DNA of 34,839 nucleotides, from NCBI GenBank assembly GCA_004376105.1, contig SOKA01000037.1, forward strand, positions 1 to 34,839, written 5' to 3'. Made by a program: the position numbers and the translations under genes. Every line of letters begins with the position of its first letter. Position 1 is the stretch's first letter. A model generated the notes under the pieces. That model worked only from the letters and a program-made list of their open reading frames with translations. It was not told where the DNA came from and did no database searches. The DNA comes from Dehalococcoidia bacterium (GTDB taxonomy: Bacteria > Chloroflexota > Dehalococcoidia > Dehalococcoidales > E44-bin46). Shown here piece by piece: positions 3,100 to 29,489 of this stretch.

Positions 3100-3861
3100 A
3101 TGAGCAAGTTTATACGTAAGTTAAGTCAGGCTTGGCAGAGTGGGCTCCAGCCTATGGGGTTTAGGGCGGGGCAATCGGGCTCACAAAGGCCCAAAATGCT
3201 GCTCATTGCCAGTTTGGCTCAGGTTAATGTTGATAGCTTGGCTGATTATGTGGCTGGGGCTGATGCTGGGCTGTTACGTATTTCCAAATTGAGCTCGGGA
3301 ACTGAAACCCTTAAAAAAATGTCTCAAGCTGTGCCTGATATTCCCTGGGGTGGGTGGCTAAGAGATATTAGCTGGGGAGAGATGAAGCCGATGAAGATGG
3401 TTGGTTGTGATTTTGTGGTTTTCCCGGCGGCTAATACCTCGTTGGCAATACTTCAAAATAGTGAAGTGGGTAAGATATTAGAGGTAGAGGCATCGCTCAG
3501 TGAAGGTTTGTTGAGGACAATTGATGAGTTACCTGTGGATGCCGTGCTTATCACTGGCGAACAGAAAGAGGATTATTTTCTTACTTGGCAGCATCTAATG
3601 CTCTTTTGGCGCTTTGCCGATTCGTTGGCTAAACCCTTGTTAGTCTCAGTACCATCAAGAGTGATGACTAACGAGCTTCAGGTGCTGTGGGAAGCGGGGG
3701 TGGGTGGTGTGATAGTGGAGGCAGGGGTTGGGGGATTAAAGGAGTTGCGACAGGCGATTGATAAATTAACCTTTCCCCCGCAACGTAGGCGGAGAAAGGC
3801 GGGGGCTTTGCTGCCTCACATTAGTGGTGCGGGGCCGGATGCAGCCACTGAAGAAGAGTAG
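3100..3861 (+). CDS. Protein of unknown function, possible TIM-barrel
   Basis: A 253-residue soluble protein. From about residue 33 it alternates short hydrophobic strands and helices (MLLIASLAQV, GADAGLLRIS, IPWGGWLRDIS, GCDFVVFPA, VDAVLITGE, KPLLVSVPS, AGVGGVIVEAGVGG), the rhythm of a beta/alpha barrel. The final VGGVIVEAGVGGLKELRQAI resembles the phosphate-binding end of such barrels. I cannot assign a family or activity. The N-terminal 30 residues are basic and Gly/Gln-rich, and the C-terminus after a KxRRRRK-type cluster looks disordered. It is a single gene facing away from xer, with its own predicted promoter. AAGG precedes the ATG. Confidence 0.7.
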   Translation: MSKFIRKLSQAWQSGLQPMGFRAGQSGSQRPKMLLIASLAQVNVDSLADYVAGADAGLLRISKLSSGTETLKKMSQAVPDIPWGGWLRDISWGEMKPMKMVGCDFVVFPAANTSLAILQNSEVGKILEVEASLSEGLLRTIDELPVDAVLITGEQKEDYFLTWQHLMLFWRFADSLAKPLLVSVPSRVMTNELQVLWEAGVGGVIVEAGVGGLKELRQAIDKLTFPPQRRRRKAGALLPHISGAGPDAATEEE

Positions 3862-24514: not shown

Positions 24515-27226
24515 TTATTCCATCTCCCCCCAGTTATTGCCGGTCTTGATGTCCACTTTTAATGGGAGGCTAAGGGCTAAAGCAGTGGACATTACTTGTG
24601 GCACCAGCTGGCGCATTGTTTCCAGCTCCTCCTGGGGCACTTCAAAGACAAGCTCATCGTGCACCTGAATCAGGAGCTTACTTTTCAGTTGGCGCTTGTC
24701 CATTTCCCGGTATAGGTTAATCATAGCCATCTTTATAATGTCGGCTGACGTCCCTTGCACTGGCATATTTATTGCCATGCGCTCAGCAGCTTCCCTAACC
24801 TGTCGGTTGGGAGAGTTGATTTCAGGGATAAAGCGTTTTCTGCCCAGTAACGTTTGAACATAGCCTAATTCCCCTGCCTGCTTTTTGGTAGACTCAAGGT
24901 ATTGCTTTACCCCGGGGTATTTTTCAAAGTATGAGGTAATGAATTGAGCCGCCTCTTCCCGCGATAGTTCTGTTGCCTGCTCCAGCCCGTAGTCACTCAT
25001 ACCATAAATAACGCCGAAATTAACTGTCTTGGCCAGGCGGCGCATATCCGGGGTTACTTGTGTAGCACCCACGCCGAAGAGCTGGACGGCGGTGGCAGTG
25101 TGAATATCCTCATCCCGATGGAAGGCGTTTAACAGGCTTGAGTCCTGAGATAGGTGGGCAAGGGCACGGAGGTCAATCTGTGAATAGTCTCCAGCTAAGA
25201 GGCAAAACCCGGGTGGAGCAATAAAGGCTTGCCTAACTTCCCTTCCCGCTTCACCTCGGACAGGGATATTTTGCAGATTGGGCTCGCTGGAGGAAAGCCG
25301 ACCAGTAGCTGTCCTTGTTTGATTAAAGCTGGTATGCACCCGACCTGTTTTGGGGTTTATTAAGCTGGGTAGGGCATCAATATAGGTTGACTTGAGCTTG
25401 GCTAACTGGCGGTAGTCTAAAATAAATTCTATTATGGGGTGGACTCCGCGCAGTTCCTCCAGTACCGAAGCACCGGTGGAATAACCGCCCCTAGTTTTAC
25501 GGGCTGGTGGCAGTTTCAGCTCCTCAAATAGGATAGAGCTTAGCTGCTGGGGTGAGTTTATATTGAAGCGGTGACCTACACTATTATATATTTCTGTCTC
25601 CAGCTTGAGTAACTGCTCACTGAGGCGATGGGACATCTGCCTCATTAGCTCTATATCCAGAGCTACACCGTTCCTCTCCATACTGACCAGCACTGGCACC
25701 AGTGGCATCTCAACCTCAGAGAACAGTTGCCATAGCCCCTGCTGGTGAAGCTCTGCGCTTAGTAATTCAGCCAGTTGTCCGGTGATATCAGCGTCAGCAC
25801 AGGAGTAATCGGCAGCCCGATTTACCTCTACCTGTGACATAGAAAGCTGCTTAGCCCCCGAGCCAATAAGAGCAGAAATAGGCGTCATTTCAATGTCTAG
25901 CTTGCTGAAGGCGAGGGCTTTCAAGCTTAAAGATTTTTCGCCCAGAAGGTAGGCAGCGAGCATAGTGTCAAAGGTCAGGTTATTGACCTTTATCCCATAC
26001 TCAGCCAGCACCGTCATATCATACTTGCCGTTGTGGGCAAGCTTAGCTAAGGTAGCATCTTCAAGTGGAGACTTAAGCCCATTGATGACCTGGTTGAGGG
26101 GCAGTTGTTCCACCTGTCCCCAGCCGACATGACCGACAGGGATGTAGTAAGCCTCGCCCGGGGCTAGCGATATAGATATACCTACCAGTTGGGCTAACAT
26201 AGCGTTTAGGCTTGTTGTCTCTAAGTCAAAGGCAAAGGACTTAGCTGCTGACAGGCGGTTTAGTAGCTCATCAAAGGCTGAAGTGGTATTTATAATATGA
26301 TAGGCTTGTTGGGGTCTGGGCTCAATTTTAGCCTGAGGGAGGCTTTCAGGTGCTTCCATTTCGGGCAATTTAGGTAATAGGCTAAGAAACTCCAACTCAC
26401 GGAAAAGCTCAGCTACCTGATGGCGGTCATAATGGCTAATCTGGCAGTCATCAAGGTTAAGGGTAACTGGTGTCTGGGTAACGATAGTCGCCAGCTCTTT
26501 ACTCTGGCGAGCAAGGGCTTCATTTTGTCGTAATAGCGCCTGGAGCTTGGGTGGGGTCACCTCGTCTATATGGGCATAGATTTCTTGCATGGTGCCAAAT
26601 TGCTGGATGAGCCTGACTGCTGTTTTCTCACCGATGCCAGGGACGCCGGGGATGTTATCCGAAGGGTCGCCCTTTAATCCTTTAAGGTCGGCAATGTGCT
26701 CAGGTTTGATGCCATATTTCTGGCTTACTGCAGCTTCATCATAGAGCGCAGTATCGCCAAAGGTTCGCCTGGGGGTAAATACTTTTACTTTAGGTGACAC
26801 CAGTTGCATAGCATCAGCATCGCCGGTAACAATTATAGTATCAATACCCTGGTGGCTGGCCTGCTGGCTGAGTGTGCCCAGAACATCATCTGCCTCATAG
26901 CCATCGAGTTCAAAGATAGGGATATGGAAGGTTTCCACCAACTGTTTTACCCGCTCTAGTTGGTTGACCAGTTCGTCAGGGGTTGGGGGGCGCTGTGCCT
27001 TATACTGGTCAAACATTTGGTGTCTAAAGGTAGGTGCCTTCTTATCGAAGGCGATGGCATAGTGGGTAGGTTTAAGCTCGCTTATTGCTTTCAGTAGTAT
27101 AAGGGCAAAGCCATAAATGGCACCTACCACCTCCCCGGTTTTACTCACCGTGAGCGGCGGTAAGGCGTGAAAGGCACGATGGACGAGGGCATTGCCGTCA
27201 AATAACACCAACCGAGGCTTTTTCAT
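24515..27226 (-). CDS. polA: DNA polymerase I
   Basis: A 903-residue Pol I with three domains: a 5'-3' exonuclease (LVLFDGNALVHRAFHALP, ELDGYEADDVLGTLS, GLKGDPSDNIPGVPGIGEKTA), a 3'-5' proofreading domain and a polymerase. The proofreading motifs FDLETTSL, HNGKYDM and YSCADAD look intact, unlike in many Pol I proteins that lost this activity. Polymerase motif A reads GDYSQIDLRALAH: Asp680 is the catalytic acid, while the usual Glu of QIELR, the steric gate against ribonucleotides, is Asp685. Motif B (RRLAKTVNFGVIYGMS) and motif C (QVHDELVFEV) are standard. The mRNA is predicted to be leaderless. Confidence 0.96.
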   Translation of the reverse strand: MKKPRLVLFDGNALVHRAFHALPPLTVSKTGEVVGAIYGFALILLKAISELKPTHYAIAFDKKAPTFRHQMFDQYKAQRPPTPDELVNQLERVKQLVETFHIPIFELDGYEADDVLGTLSQQASHQGIDTIIVTGDADAMQLVSPKVKVFTPRRTFGDTALYDEAAVSQKYGIKPEHIADLKGLKGDPSDNIPGVPGIGEKTAVRLIQQFGTMQEIYAHIDEVTPPKLQALLRQNEALARQSKELATIVTQTPVTLNLDDCQISHYDRHQVAELFRELEFLSLLPKLPEMEAPESLPQAKIEPRPQQAYHIINTTSAFDELLNRLSAAKSFAFDLETTSLNAMLAQLVGISISLAPGEAYYIPVGHVGWGQVEQLPLNQVINGLKSPLEDATLAKLAHNGKYDMTVLAEYGIKVNNLTFDTMLAAYLLGEKSLSLKALAFSKLDIEMTPISALIGSGAKQLSMSQVEVNRAADYSCADADITGQLAELLSAELHQQGLWQLFSEVEMPLVPVLVSMERNGVALDIELMRQMSHRLSEQLLKLETEIYNSVGHRFNINSPQQLSSILFEELKLPPARKTRGGYSTGASVLEELRGVHPIIEFILDYRQLAKLKSTYIDALPSLINPKTGRVHTSFNQTRTATGRLSSSEPNLQNIPVRGEAGREVRQAFIAPPGFCLLAGDYSQIDLRALAHLSQDSSLLNAFHRDEDIHTATAVQLFGVGATQVTPDMRRLAKTVNFGVIYGMSDYGLEQATELSREEAAQFITSYFEKYPGVKQYLESTKKQAGELGYVQTLLGRKRFIPEINSPNRQVREAAERMAINMPVQGTSADIIKMAMINLYREMDKRQLKSKLLIQVHDELVFEVPQEELETMRQLVPQVMSTALALSLPLKVDIKTGNNWGEME

Positions 27227-27248
27227 AGTCTCATTATAGCAGAGTGAG
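27188..27248 (-). repeat. polA 5' end and promoter, parent copy of a duplication
   Basis: About 60 bases spanning the -10, start codon and first 13 codons of polA recur at 27831-27892 in the same orientation with about seven differences. The two copies flank the rhodanese lipoprotein gene. Confidence 0.8.
27233..27241 (-). promoter_or_regulatory. Extended -10 promoter of polA, leaderless
   Basis: The minus strand has TGC-TATAAT (hexamer 27233-27238). Initiation 7 bases downstream falls on the A of the polA ATG at 27226. There is no ribosome site and no good -35. Confidence 0.55.
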
Positions 27249-27334
27249 AAGGATTTGGGTTAGCAAAGTCAGGCAAGTCAAACTGTTAGCGAAGCTACCA
27301 GCTGACTAAAGTCTTCCCAAAGATTCGTATGATT

Positions 27335-27778
27335 CTATTTTGTGGTTGGCAATCCTTCCGCCTTCCACTGATCAATCCCGCCCGACATATTGTAGACTTC
27401 CCTGAAATTGAGCTCCGCCATTATATCTAAAGCGTTTCCGCTTCGACCTCCACTCCGGCAATAAATGAGATAGGTTTTATTCTTATCCAAAGTATTAAGC
27501 TCATCCCTGAAAGTTTCAGAGAGGAAATCTATATTGATAGCCTTTTCTATATGCTCATCGGCAAATTCTTCCGGCGTTCGCACATCAATAATCACAAAAT
27601 CGGGATTGTCCAGGTTGTCCTGTATTAAGATAAACGCTTCTTGTGGAGTAATATCTTCAATTATCTGGGTTGGAGTTTCGATTTCTTTGCCAGCGCAGCC
27701 ACCTATCAAAACAAATCCAATAATCAGTGATGCCGAAAGCACCAATATCATTAAGTTTTTTAGACTCTTTTTTGCCAT
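27335..27778 (-). CDS. Rhodanese-domain lipoprotein
   Basis: A 147-residue exported single-domain rhodanese. The N-terminus is a lipoprotein signal peptide (MAKKSLKNLM, a hydrophobic core, lipobox LIGGC with Cys28), a substrate for LspA at 19007. The mature domain shows VIIDVRTPEEFADEHIEKAINI and the active-site loop YCRSGGRSG with Cys107. Such proteins bind persulfide sulfur, here outside the cytoplasmic membrane. The gene lies between two copies of the polA start region, and the nearest upstream promoter-like site is the duplicated polA -10. AAGAAGAG precedes the ATG. Confidence 0.87.
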   Translation of the reverse strand: MAKKSLKNLMILVLSASLIIGFVLIGGCAGKEIETPTQIIEDITPQEAFILIQDNLDNPDFVIIDVRTPEEFADEHIEKAINIDFLSETFRDELNTLDKNKTYLIYCRSGGRSGNALDIMAELNFREVYNMSGGIDQWKAEGLPTTK

Positions 27779-27806
27779 AAGTTATTACTCTTCTTCTTTT
27801 TAGTCT

Positions 27807-27869
27807 TTAAGACAGGGTTTGGAGCATCAAGGCATTGCCATCAAACAGCACCAACCGAGGCTTTTTCAT
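27807..27869 (-). pseudogene. Truncated polA 5' copy (20 codons)
   Basis: ATG at 27869 opens MKKPRLVLFDGNAL, identical to the first 14 residues of PolA, then diverges to MLQTLS and stops. It is a start-region duplicate rather than a functional gene, though it may be translated as a 20-residue leader 28 bases before the rhodanese gene. Confidence 0.75.
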
Positions 27870-27892
27870 AACTTCATTATAGCAGGGTTGAG
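27831..27892 (-). repeat. Duplicated polA promoter and start region
   Basis: It matches 27188-27248, including TGC-TATAAT (hexamer 27876-27881) seven bases before the ATG. It probably drives the rhodanese gene. Confidence 0.75.
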
Positions 27893-27907
27893 GGCATAGT
27901 AGATAGA

Positions 27908-28180
27908 TTAAAAATCGCTGGGCGGGGCTCTCTGGATGGGTTTTAGGTAGGAGGTATCATTATGTCTAATGAGGATGAACCGTTCATTTTCATAAGTAAA
28001 GGTGGTGATTCCACACACGTCCTGCTTTATGTTCCAGAAGTGGGAATTATCCAGCCCCAATAGAGCACATATCAGCACCTTATTGACAACGCGATGAGAT
28101 ACTAGGACTACAGTGCCCTCATATTTGGCTATTATATTACCCACCACACCAATGGCTCTTTTCCTGCGCCGCAAAAGCAC
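27908..28180 (-). pseudogene. C-terminal fragment of a histidine phosphatase (phosphoglycerate mutase family)
   Basis: The 90-codon frame encodes only the second half of the fold: GNIIAKYEGTVVLVSHRVVN (the family's late VxVSHGxxI His motif), KVLICALLGLD, FWNIKQDVCGITTF and FILIRHNDTSYL. The N-terminal RHG motif with the phosphorylated His is missing, so no activity is expected. Its upstream end runs directly into, and overlaps, the 3' end of the DUF4342 gene. This looks like a deletion that fused the remains of two genes. It has no start signal of its own. Confidence 0.7.
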
Positions 28181-28388
28181 CGATAGCTGCTAGAACTGGA
28201 GCTGCCAGAATCACTGCCGCCGTTACTGGCGCGCCTATCGTCAGTGGAATCTCAAGTACAGTTTTCCCTTTGTGAATCACCCGGACCTTTCTGATGTTAC
28301 CTTCGTGGATGAGTTGCTTGATTTTCTCAACTAACTGGCTTCCTGATACGGTAAACTTTTCGCTTTTAGTCTTTTCATTATTGGTCAT
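28137..28388 (-). CDS. DUF4342-family protein with a replaced C-terminus
   Basis: An 83-residue protein of the DUF4342 type: FTVSGSQLVEKIKQLIHEGN, VRVIHKGKTVLEIPLTIG and a hydrophobic APVTAAVILAAPVLAAIGAFAA helix, which probably contacts the membrane. Family members usually continue with a short charged tail after this helix. Here the last residues, QEKSHWCGG, come from DNA that reads as a histidine phosphatase in another frame. The gene thus seems cut at its 3' end by a deletion but may still work. Function of the family is not known. AGAGG precedes the ATG. Confidence 0.7.
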   Translation of the reverse strand: MTNNEKTKSEKFTVSGSQLVEKIKQLIHEGNIRKVRVIHKGKTVLEIPLTIGAPVTAAVILAAPVLAAIGAFAAQEKSHWCGG

Positions 28389-28515
28389 TGGTAGCCTCTC
28401 TTTATTTAATTGTAAATGATTAAGGGTTTATATTCTAGAGGCTATACGAAATTTCTCTAAAAGCTGTTTAAACTTCCCTTGATAAGAAACCCCTTTACTT
28501 AATAGTTGTTTTTCG

Positions 28516-28524
28516 TGATATACT
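28516..28524 (+). promoter_or_regulatory. Extended -10 promoter for argF
   Basis: TGA-TATACT (hexamer 28519-28524), part of a TGATATACTATA string shared with the endonuclease IV promoter. Start near 28531 gives a 17-base leader with AAAGGGGG. No ARG box is recognised. Confidence 0.5.
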
Positions 28525-28547
28525 ATAGGGCTATAAAGGGGGTTAAT

Positions 28548-29489
28548 TTGGAGGGTAAGGACCTACTTTCAGTATCTGACCTCGGCAGTTTGGATATTGA
28601 CTTACTTATTTCAGATGCTGTAGATATGAAAGCCAGGGGCTGGCTTTCTTTACTTAGTGGCAAGACATTAGCCCTTATGTTTGAGAAGCCATCGTTAAGG
28701 ACTCGGGTTAGCTTTGAAGTAGCAATGCGACAGCTAGGTGGGCAGACCATTTACCTGTCTTCGGCTGAGGTTGGTCTGGGAGAGCGCGAGTCAGTTTCAG
28801 ATGTAGCCCGTGTGCTCAGTGGCTATGTAGATGCTATTGCTGCCCGCACCTTTTCTCACCAAACTTTAGAGATTCTGGCTAGCTATTCTAATGTGCCAGT
28901 GATAAATGCTCTATCTGATTTGGAACACCCGTGCCAGGCGCTGGCTGACCTTTTTACTATTTATGAGAAGAAGGGGGAGCTTCGGGGCTTGACCCTAGCC
29001 TTTGTTGGTGATGGCAATAATGTGGCTCACAGTCTTCTATTAGCTGCTTCGCTTACCGGGATGAATTTCAGGATTGCTTCTCCAACTGACTACAGGGTTC
29101 AGGAGAGAGTATTGCACCTGGCTCAAGGCTATGCTTTTGATAGTGGTGCTGAAATATTCTACACTGAGGAGCCGCGACTGGCAGTTAGTGGGGCTGATGT
29201 AGTTTATACTGATGTGTGGACGAGTATGGGGCAGGAGGCTGAGGCTGACCGGCGACGCCAGACGTTTGCCAGCTACCAAGTGAATAGTGAACTTCTGTCT
29301 TTAGCTAAGGGGGATGCCATATTGATGCACCCCTTGCCAGCACATCGGGGCGAGGAGGTGGCTGAGGGCATTTTAGACAGTCCACAATCAGTAGTCTTTG
29401 ACCAGGCTGAGAATAGGATGCATCTGCAGAAAGCGCTGTTGGCGGTAATGCTGGGTGGTCTGGAGATACCGCTGGCTGGCTATCGGTAG
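28548..29489 (+). CDS. argF: Ornithine carbamoyltransferase
   Basis: Forms citrulline from ornithine and carbamoyl phosphate in arginine synthesis. The 314-residue product has the carbamoyl phosphate loop KPSLRTRVSFEVAMRQLGG, HPCQALADLFTIYEKKG, AFVGDGNNVAHSLLLAASLTG, VYTDVWTSMGQE and MHPLPAHRGEEV; the SMG and (H)PLPAHRG motifs favour ornithine over aspartate. TTG at 28548 is chosen as start because AAAGGGGG lies 6 bases before it; the in-frame ATG at 28506 would be upstream of the predicted promoter. It is followed after 10 bases by der. Confidence 0.93.
   Translation: MEGKDLLSVSDLGSLDIDLLISDAVDMKARGWLSLLSGKTLALMFEKPSLRTRVSFEVAMRQLGGQTIYLSSAEVGLGERESVSDVARVLSGYVDAIAARTFSHQTLEILASYSNVPVINALSDLEHPCQALADLFTIYEKKGELRGLTLAFVGDGNNVAHSLLLAASLTGMNFRIASPTDYRVQERVLHLAQGYAFDSGAEIFYTEEPRLAVSGADVVYTDVWTSMGQEAEADRRRQTFASYQVNSELLSLAKGDAILMHPLPAHRGEEVAEGILDSPQSVVFDQAENRMHLQKALLAVMLGGLEIPLAGYR

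Follow-up and report, generated by a model that had tools for sequence, protein, structure and literature searches.

A 34,839-nt stretch of contig SOKA01000037.1 from a Dehalococcoidia bacterium (the window) carries a full-length polA gene, an intact gene for a rhodanese-domain lipoprotein directly in front of it and, ahead of that, a second and truncated copy of the polA start, referred to here as the stub. Coordinates are those of the whole stretch, and all the genes discussed lie on its minus strand. Genomes and contigs are numbered as in our collection, with the window genome, a metagenome-assembled genome (MAG) of about 1 Mb (978 kb in 91 contigs), as G000 and the window contig as C42; the nearest named relatives of G000 in a public scan were MAGs of the Dehalococcoidia and Dehalococcoidales. 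The features of the locus are listed in Table 1.

Table 1. Features in and around the duplicated polA start; ORF, open reading frame
Feature	Position	Strand	Remarks
polA, full-length DNA polymerase I, 903 aa	24515..27226	-	Pfam PF00476, PF02739, PF01367, PF01612
Downstream repeat copy (real polA promoter and start)	27188..27245	-	direct-repeat search
polA extended -10, TGCTATAAT	27233..27241	-	hexamer 27233-27238, TGC before it, 6 nt to ATG; leaderless layout
'B' spacer, rhodanese to polA repeat copy	27246..27334	-	alignable with rhodanese-polA spacer of G022, G001, G021; no clear terminator
Rhodanese-domain lipoprotein, 147 aa, intact	27335..27778	-	Pfam PF00581, E=1.6e-21; active-site loop CRSGGRS
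Gap, stub stop to rhodanese ATG, 28 nt	27779..27806	-	rhodanese ribosome-binding region; resembles 5' region of other rhodanese lipoprotein genes
Stub ORF, 20 codons, MKKPRLVLFDGNALMLQTLS	27807..27869	-	codons 1-14 as polA; predicted leaderless upstream ORF
Upstream repeat copy (stub: polA promoter and start)	27831..27888	-	5' flank matches polA promoter flank of G029, G043, G019
Stub extended -10, TGCTATAAT	27876..27884	-	hexamer 27876-27881, TGC before it, 6 nt to stub ATG
'A' spacer, phosphatase remnant to stub promoter	27889..27907	-	homologous to phosphatase-polA spacer in G029, G043, G019
Histidine phosphatase C-terminal remnant, about 90 codons	27908..28180	-	Pfam PF00300, profile positions 123-194 of 194
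DUF4342 gene, C-terminus truncated	28137..28388	-	Pfam PF14242; DNA match to G001 ends near 28160

The duplicated polA start and its promoter

The stub and the real polA start form a direct repeat of a single family, 58 nt long and 88% identical, with the copies 643 bp apart; each holds the polA promoter, the ATG and the first 14 codons, and together they bracket the rhodanese gene. Both a repeat search and a BLAST of the 5.6-kb region against itself (E = 2.5e-15) recovered the pair. This bears out the original prediction, made from the sequence of the window, of a direct repeat of about 88% on either side of the rhodanese gene with a 20-codon stub that stops 28 nt short of the rhodanese ATG (27778), and the details it gave of these elements were all accurate. 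The longest identical run shared by the copies is about 22 nt. The stub region matches just these two places across the whole assembly, and the doubling is peculiar to the window genome, which alone has two matches to the pattern TATAAT-gap-ATGAARMRGCC among 393 genomes of the class and alone has two matches to a stricter polA-start pattern among 156 genomes of the order. At codon 14-15 the stub departs from its homology with polA and enters the 5' region of the rhodanese gene, a non-homologous join. The rhodanese gene, whose translation has the active-site cysteine in its loop and a lipobox-like LIGGC, is the only gene encoded between the repeat copies, with no recombinase there and no inverted repeats in 26400-28700; it ends 108 nt before polA, and two paralogues, 73 and 70% identical to it, lie on contig C33.

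Of particular relevance to the role of the stub is the extended -10, which is better conserved across the order than any other part of the polA start. The layout TG-N-TATAAT-N6-ATG is almost invariant at the polA loci compared, leaves no room for a Shine-Dalgarno (SD) sequence, and gave 30 matches in the six genomes searched versus 3 for the reversed control. The rules for TA-led genes (PMC3160421) predict that the polA mRNA is leaderless; a search of the literature on leaderless transcription starts in Dehalococcoides found no papers. A consensus scan for -35/-10 pairs returned none at either the stub or the polA promoter, since the promoter is of the extended -10 kind only, and the same scan showed no further promoter-like site directly upstream of the rhodanese gene on its strand. 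Nor was there a signal of RNA structure, with fold z-scores of -0.42 for 27227-27334 and 0.13 for the stub leader. A 58-nt copy of the polA promoter and ATG is thus found fused upstream of the rhodanese gene, and this candidate captured promoter, as judged from its sequence, probably drives the gene.

The polA neighbourhood in related genomes

Upstream of polA the order shows a common theme with variations: argF (divergent), DUF4342, histidine phosphatase, rhodanese, polA. The phosphatase gene precedes polA directly in G018 and G019, and a phosphatase tail stands ahead of polA in G029 and G043; the rhodanese gene lies directly before polA in G022, G001, G021, G008, G087 and G155, and all three genes, for phosphatase, rhodanese and DNA polymerase I, are present in G133 and G129. 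In the window the repeat copies do not share an upstream flank, and for each of the two flanks separate homologues can be found at the polA of other genomes. The sequence before the stub is homologous to the phosphatase-polA spacer of three relatives (Table 1); that before the real polA is homologous to the rhodanese-polA spacer of G022 and G001 and alignable with that of G021. The copies therefore carry two independently attested upstream flanks, and both junction types, phosphatase-polA and rhodanese-polA, stand in series within the window. A site free of the rhodanese gene, which the original prediction proposed to seek in relatives, does exist in the phosphatase-polA order of G018 and G019, but there it looks ancestral. 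At 28137-28180 of the window a deletion has fused the truncated DUF4342 gene to the last 90 codons of the phosphatase gene, with the junction near 28160.

In G002, an independent single-contig assembly from the same family and another genus, one of the rhodanese genes likewise follows directly on a truncated polA start (TCTGTTATAATTAATAAAGCCATGAAAAAGCCGCTTTAG...GGCAATGCC). The frame of this second stub is broken, with a stop at codon 6; the extended -10, TG-N-TATAAT, is intact, with TGTTATAAT kept. The stretch from the truncation to the rhodanese gene is 51 nt long in G002 and 52 nt in the window, and the two can be aligned, with only 1 of 5000 shuffles scoring as well once the final 20 nt, similar as they are to the leaders of other rhodanese genes, are excluded; the equivalent regions of four further rhodanese genes gave no match to the window stretch. 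Because the stub-rhodanese junction is shared, so is the event behind it, and the stub is neither a recent insertion nor a single faulty assembly. A recent insertion, which would have been the simplest case, is ruled out by this junction; judged from the alignment, the stub is old and common to two genera, which comes close to the ancient, fixed copies that the original prediction had listed as counting against it. Its interpretation survives in part: promoter capture is plausible, and the best supported of its proposals as far as sequence can tell, the extended -10 having been kept in G002 while the frame was broken, whereas there is little to support the discrete 640-bp insertion proposed beside it, as discussed below.

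The gene order in G002 is rhodanese, B-type spacer, stub, rhodanese, thioredoxin-like and CcdA-like genes (named from a reading of their translations alone), polA. The extra rhodanese-spacer-stub unit seen here is what one would expect from crossing over between stub and polA start in an ancestor resembling the window. This lends indirect support to the earlier suggestion of recombination through the repeats, although what is seen is an extra unit and not the predicted excision.

The polA coding sequence also carries a trace of exchange. Between G000 and its nearest relative, G001, the polA mismatch is 17.7% before nt 142 and 7.9% after it, a break as strong as which was found in none of 300 permutations; no comparable break appears when G000 is compared with G029, G148, G031 or G023, or G001 with G029 or G031. 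Since the argF-DUF4342 flank is 89-90% identical between G000 and G001, the odd tract extends from DUF4342 to about codon 47 of polA. This tract thus appears to have a different history in one of the two genomes, and the break at nt 142 points to homologous exchange anchored in polA. A further break, at nt 917 between G001 and G002, indicates that polA recombines among these lineages.

Possible origins of the stub

These observations lead us, on balance, to favour an old recombination scar acting as a captured promoter, in which a rhodanese-polA segment was joined to a resident phosphatase-polA locus. The starting point would have been a locus of the order DUF4342, phosphatase, polA, which gained a rhodanese-spacer-polA segment. 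One side of the event was probably a homologous exchange with its anchor in polA coding sequence, and the other would have been an illegitimate join at codon 14-15, a little way into the resident polA start. The promoter and initial codons of the resident gene would thereby have been stranded upstream of the rhodanese gene, while polA runs on from the copy of its start that came in with the segment. From the stranded leaderless extended -10 a transcript would begin at the stub AUG or next to it; ribosomes would read or pass the dispensable 20-codon upstream ORF, and 28 nt downstream the rhodanese would be translated with the help of a ribosome-binding site of its own.

Several points weigh against this history. 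The upstream flank of the G002 stub is of the rhodanese and not the phosphatase type, which calls for at least one more rearrangement. In the rhodanese tree the window gene clusters with those of G022 and G029 (91/90), and the post-stub gene of G002 is placed elsewhere (weak support, and arrays may convert). The polA tree, on which the order of events rests, gives no order of layouts for the relevant genomes, and the complete succession of phosphatase, stub, rhodanese and polA on one molecule is seen in one MAG contig. Finally, CCTCGG stands at codons 4-5 of both the stub and the main copy, which would fit a duplication within the genome as well, though G043 has these codons too. Gene conversion between the two copies was considered as a source of the shared codons, a suggestion weakened by the same finding in G043.

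The main rival, possible if unlikely, is tandem duplication with promoter capture, whereby in an ancestor of the order rhodanese-spacer-polA a segment from just before the rhodanese gene to about codon 14 of polA was doubled head to tail, so that the second rhodanese gene came to lie behind the polA promoter, with the first one later lost from the window or replaced by the phosphatase flank. The order rhodanese, spacer, polA start, rhodanese in G002 is exactly the product expected, rhodanese arrays have expanded in G001, G002 and G148, and tandem duplication giving promoter capture is known in bacteria (PMC11111574). Such a duplication would give the G002 unit too, but not the phosphatase-type flank of the window stub: on its own it does not account for what precedes that stub, a phosphatase tail and an A-type spacer with matches in the polA promoter flank of G029, G043 and G019, and it needs an additional exchange with a phosphatase-polA allele. 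More improbable, and the least supported of the natural alternatives, is a transposition-like insertion in which a rhodanese cassette of about 640 bp entered the polA start and 58 bp of target were duplicated. The direct repeats on both sides of the rhodanese gene suggest it, and repeat-flanked inserts recur at the polA locus (a 39-bp, 97% repeat around 1.5 kb in G043; phosphatase tails in G029). Against it, there is neither a recombinase nor any terminal inverted repeat to be seen, and we know of no transposase with target duplications of 28-58 bp. The differing flanks of the two copies speak against it as well, as do the rhodanese-polA arrangement with alignable spacer that occurs without any stub in other families (G022) and the age of an event common to a second genus.

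Two further alternatives concern the stub itself. It could be an inert scar, a fossil without a role, with the rhodanese gene transcribed from elsewhere or silent, which is compatible with any of these routes and which we think unlikely. The stub is a mere 58 nt, its frame has decayed in G002 and the consensus scan finds no -35/-10 pair in it; yet the extended -10 is intact both there and in the window, the rhodanese reading frame is whole and codes for the active-site cysteine, and no other promoter-like site lies directly upstream of that gene on the same strand. An assembly artefact in which the polA starts of two strains were joined is very improbable. This is a metagenome assembly in 91 contigs and its relatives show both layouts, but the stub-rhodanese junction recurs in G002, and an identical run of at most about 22 nt is too short for the usual k-mer misjoin.

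One extension of the recombination-scar reading is doubtful. The 643-bp unit of polA-start stub, rhodanese gene and spacer could be a self-contained amplifiable cassette, with its polA-start ends serving as crossover sites for the gain and loss of rhodanese genes and its leaderless AUG heading a regulatory upstream ORF that would tie rhodanese output to polA-type transcription.

Related systems and other observations

The locus can be explained by known processes, promoter capture and homology-facilitated illegitimate recombination, to which it adds a new example. Promoter capture by tandem duplication or deletion is represented by the his fusions of Anderson and Roth (1978) and the work of Li and Bock (2019), as cited in PMC11111574. 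As in the cases described there, a gene gains the promoter of a neighbour at a new join, a fragment of the neighbour is left in front, and the units can amplify; in contrast to them, the event here took place in nature and long ago, not under laboratory selection, and the leaderless-type promoter brings its own start codon, hence the short upstream ORF. Homology-facilitated illegitimate recombination has been described in Acinetobacter, Streptococcus and Pseudomonas, in the type VI secretion gene arrays of Vibrio cholerae (PMC5361080) and in E. coli conjugation (PMC3240628). It shares with our locus one non-homologous end as well as an added gene beside the displaced leftover of a resident one, and its single homologous anchor would here be polA. 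In our case the leftover consists of a promoter with 14 codons from a gene of replication and repair, and donor and recipient are putative.

Leaderless promoters are TA-led, with a -10 adjoining the ORF (PMC3160421, PMC12340547), and at both polA and the stub the TATAAT ends 6 nt before the ATG without room for an SD sequence; here this class is predicted from sequence, and the promoter has been duplicated before a gene with a ribosome-binding site of its own. A further parallel is offered by the SD-led E. coli mRNAs with a 5'-terminal upstream AUG (ptrB, rcnR and others), in which changing that AUG altered downstream expression for some genes (PMC4965119). The predicted mRNA of our locus likewise begins at the AUG of a short ORF followed by an SD-led gene, with the difference that the origin of the ORF is known, as a copy of the polA start, and that the ORF is not conserved in G002.

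The interest of the locus lies in its being a natural case with a scar readable from several genomes, among which the two parental junctions can be found, as can the merged state and a derivative that carries one unit more. The locus also illustrates that a leaderless promoter moves together with its start codon, so that capture automatically makes an upstream ORF, and it could be used for studying promoter gain in streamlined, uncultured Dehalococcoidia-like bacteria. The general picture is unchanged by it, this being an ordinary kind of genome tinkering.

Other rearrangements were seen near polA or its neighbours. The 39-bp, 97% direct repeat of G043, a genome of a different family from the window, is a repeat of the phosphatase 3' end (L155, G043:C28, 1017-1055 and 2604-2642) and flanks a 1.5-kb insert between phosphatase and polA, carrying a small ORF and a helix-turn-helix protein that resemble a toxin-antitoxin pair. 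In G029 two phosphatase 3'-end copies of about 28 bp (L148, G029:C69, 3953 and 4447) lie around a rhodanese gene, the remainder of the phosphatase gene being gone. What appears to be nadC in G004 has an independent polA promoter with an 8-codon stub (TGTTATAATATACTCATGAAAAAGCCACTTCTGGTGCTGTGA) about 190 bp upstream of it (L188, G004:C40, minus strand near 3770-3820). G007 has a 57-bp, 95% direct repeat (L183, G007:C73, 1744-1799 and 3639-3695) around two genes, one for an MFS transporter and one for a rhodanese lipoprotein; the repeat resembles a fragment of a tRNA gene, but ARAGORN finds none. A 4.5-kb segment is 98.3% identical between G086 (L153, G086:C40) and G000 (L161, G000:C33), genomes assigned to different families, and reflects either recent transfer or shared bin contamination. 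In G001, G002 and G148 (L150, L168, L169, L152) the rhodanese lipoproteins have grown into multi-domain tandem rhodanese proteins, some of them with altered active-site loops.

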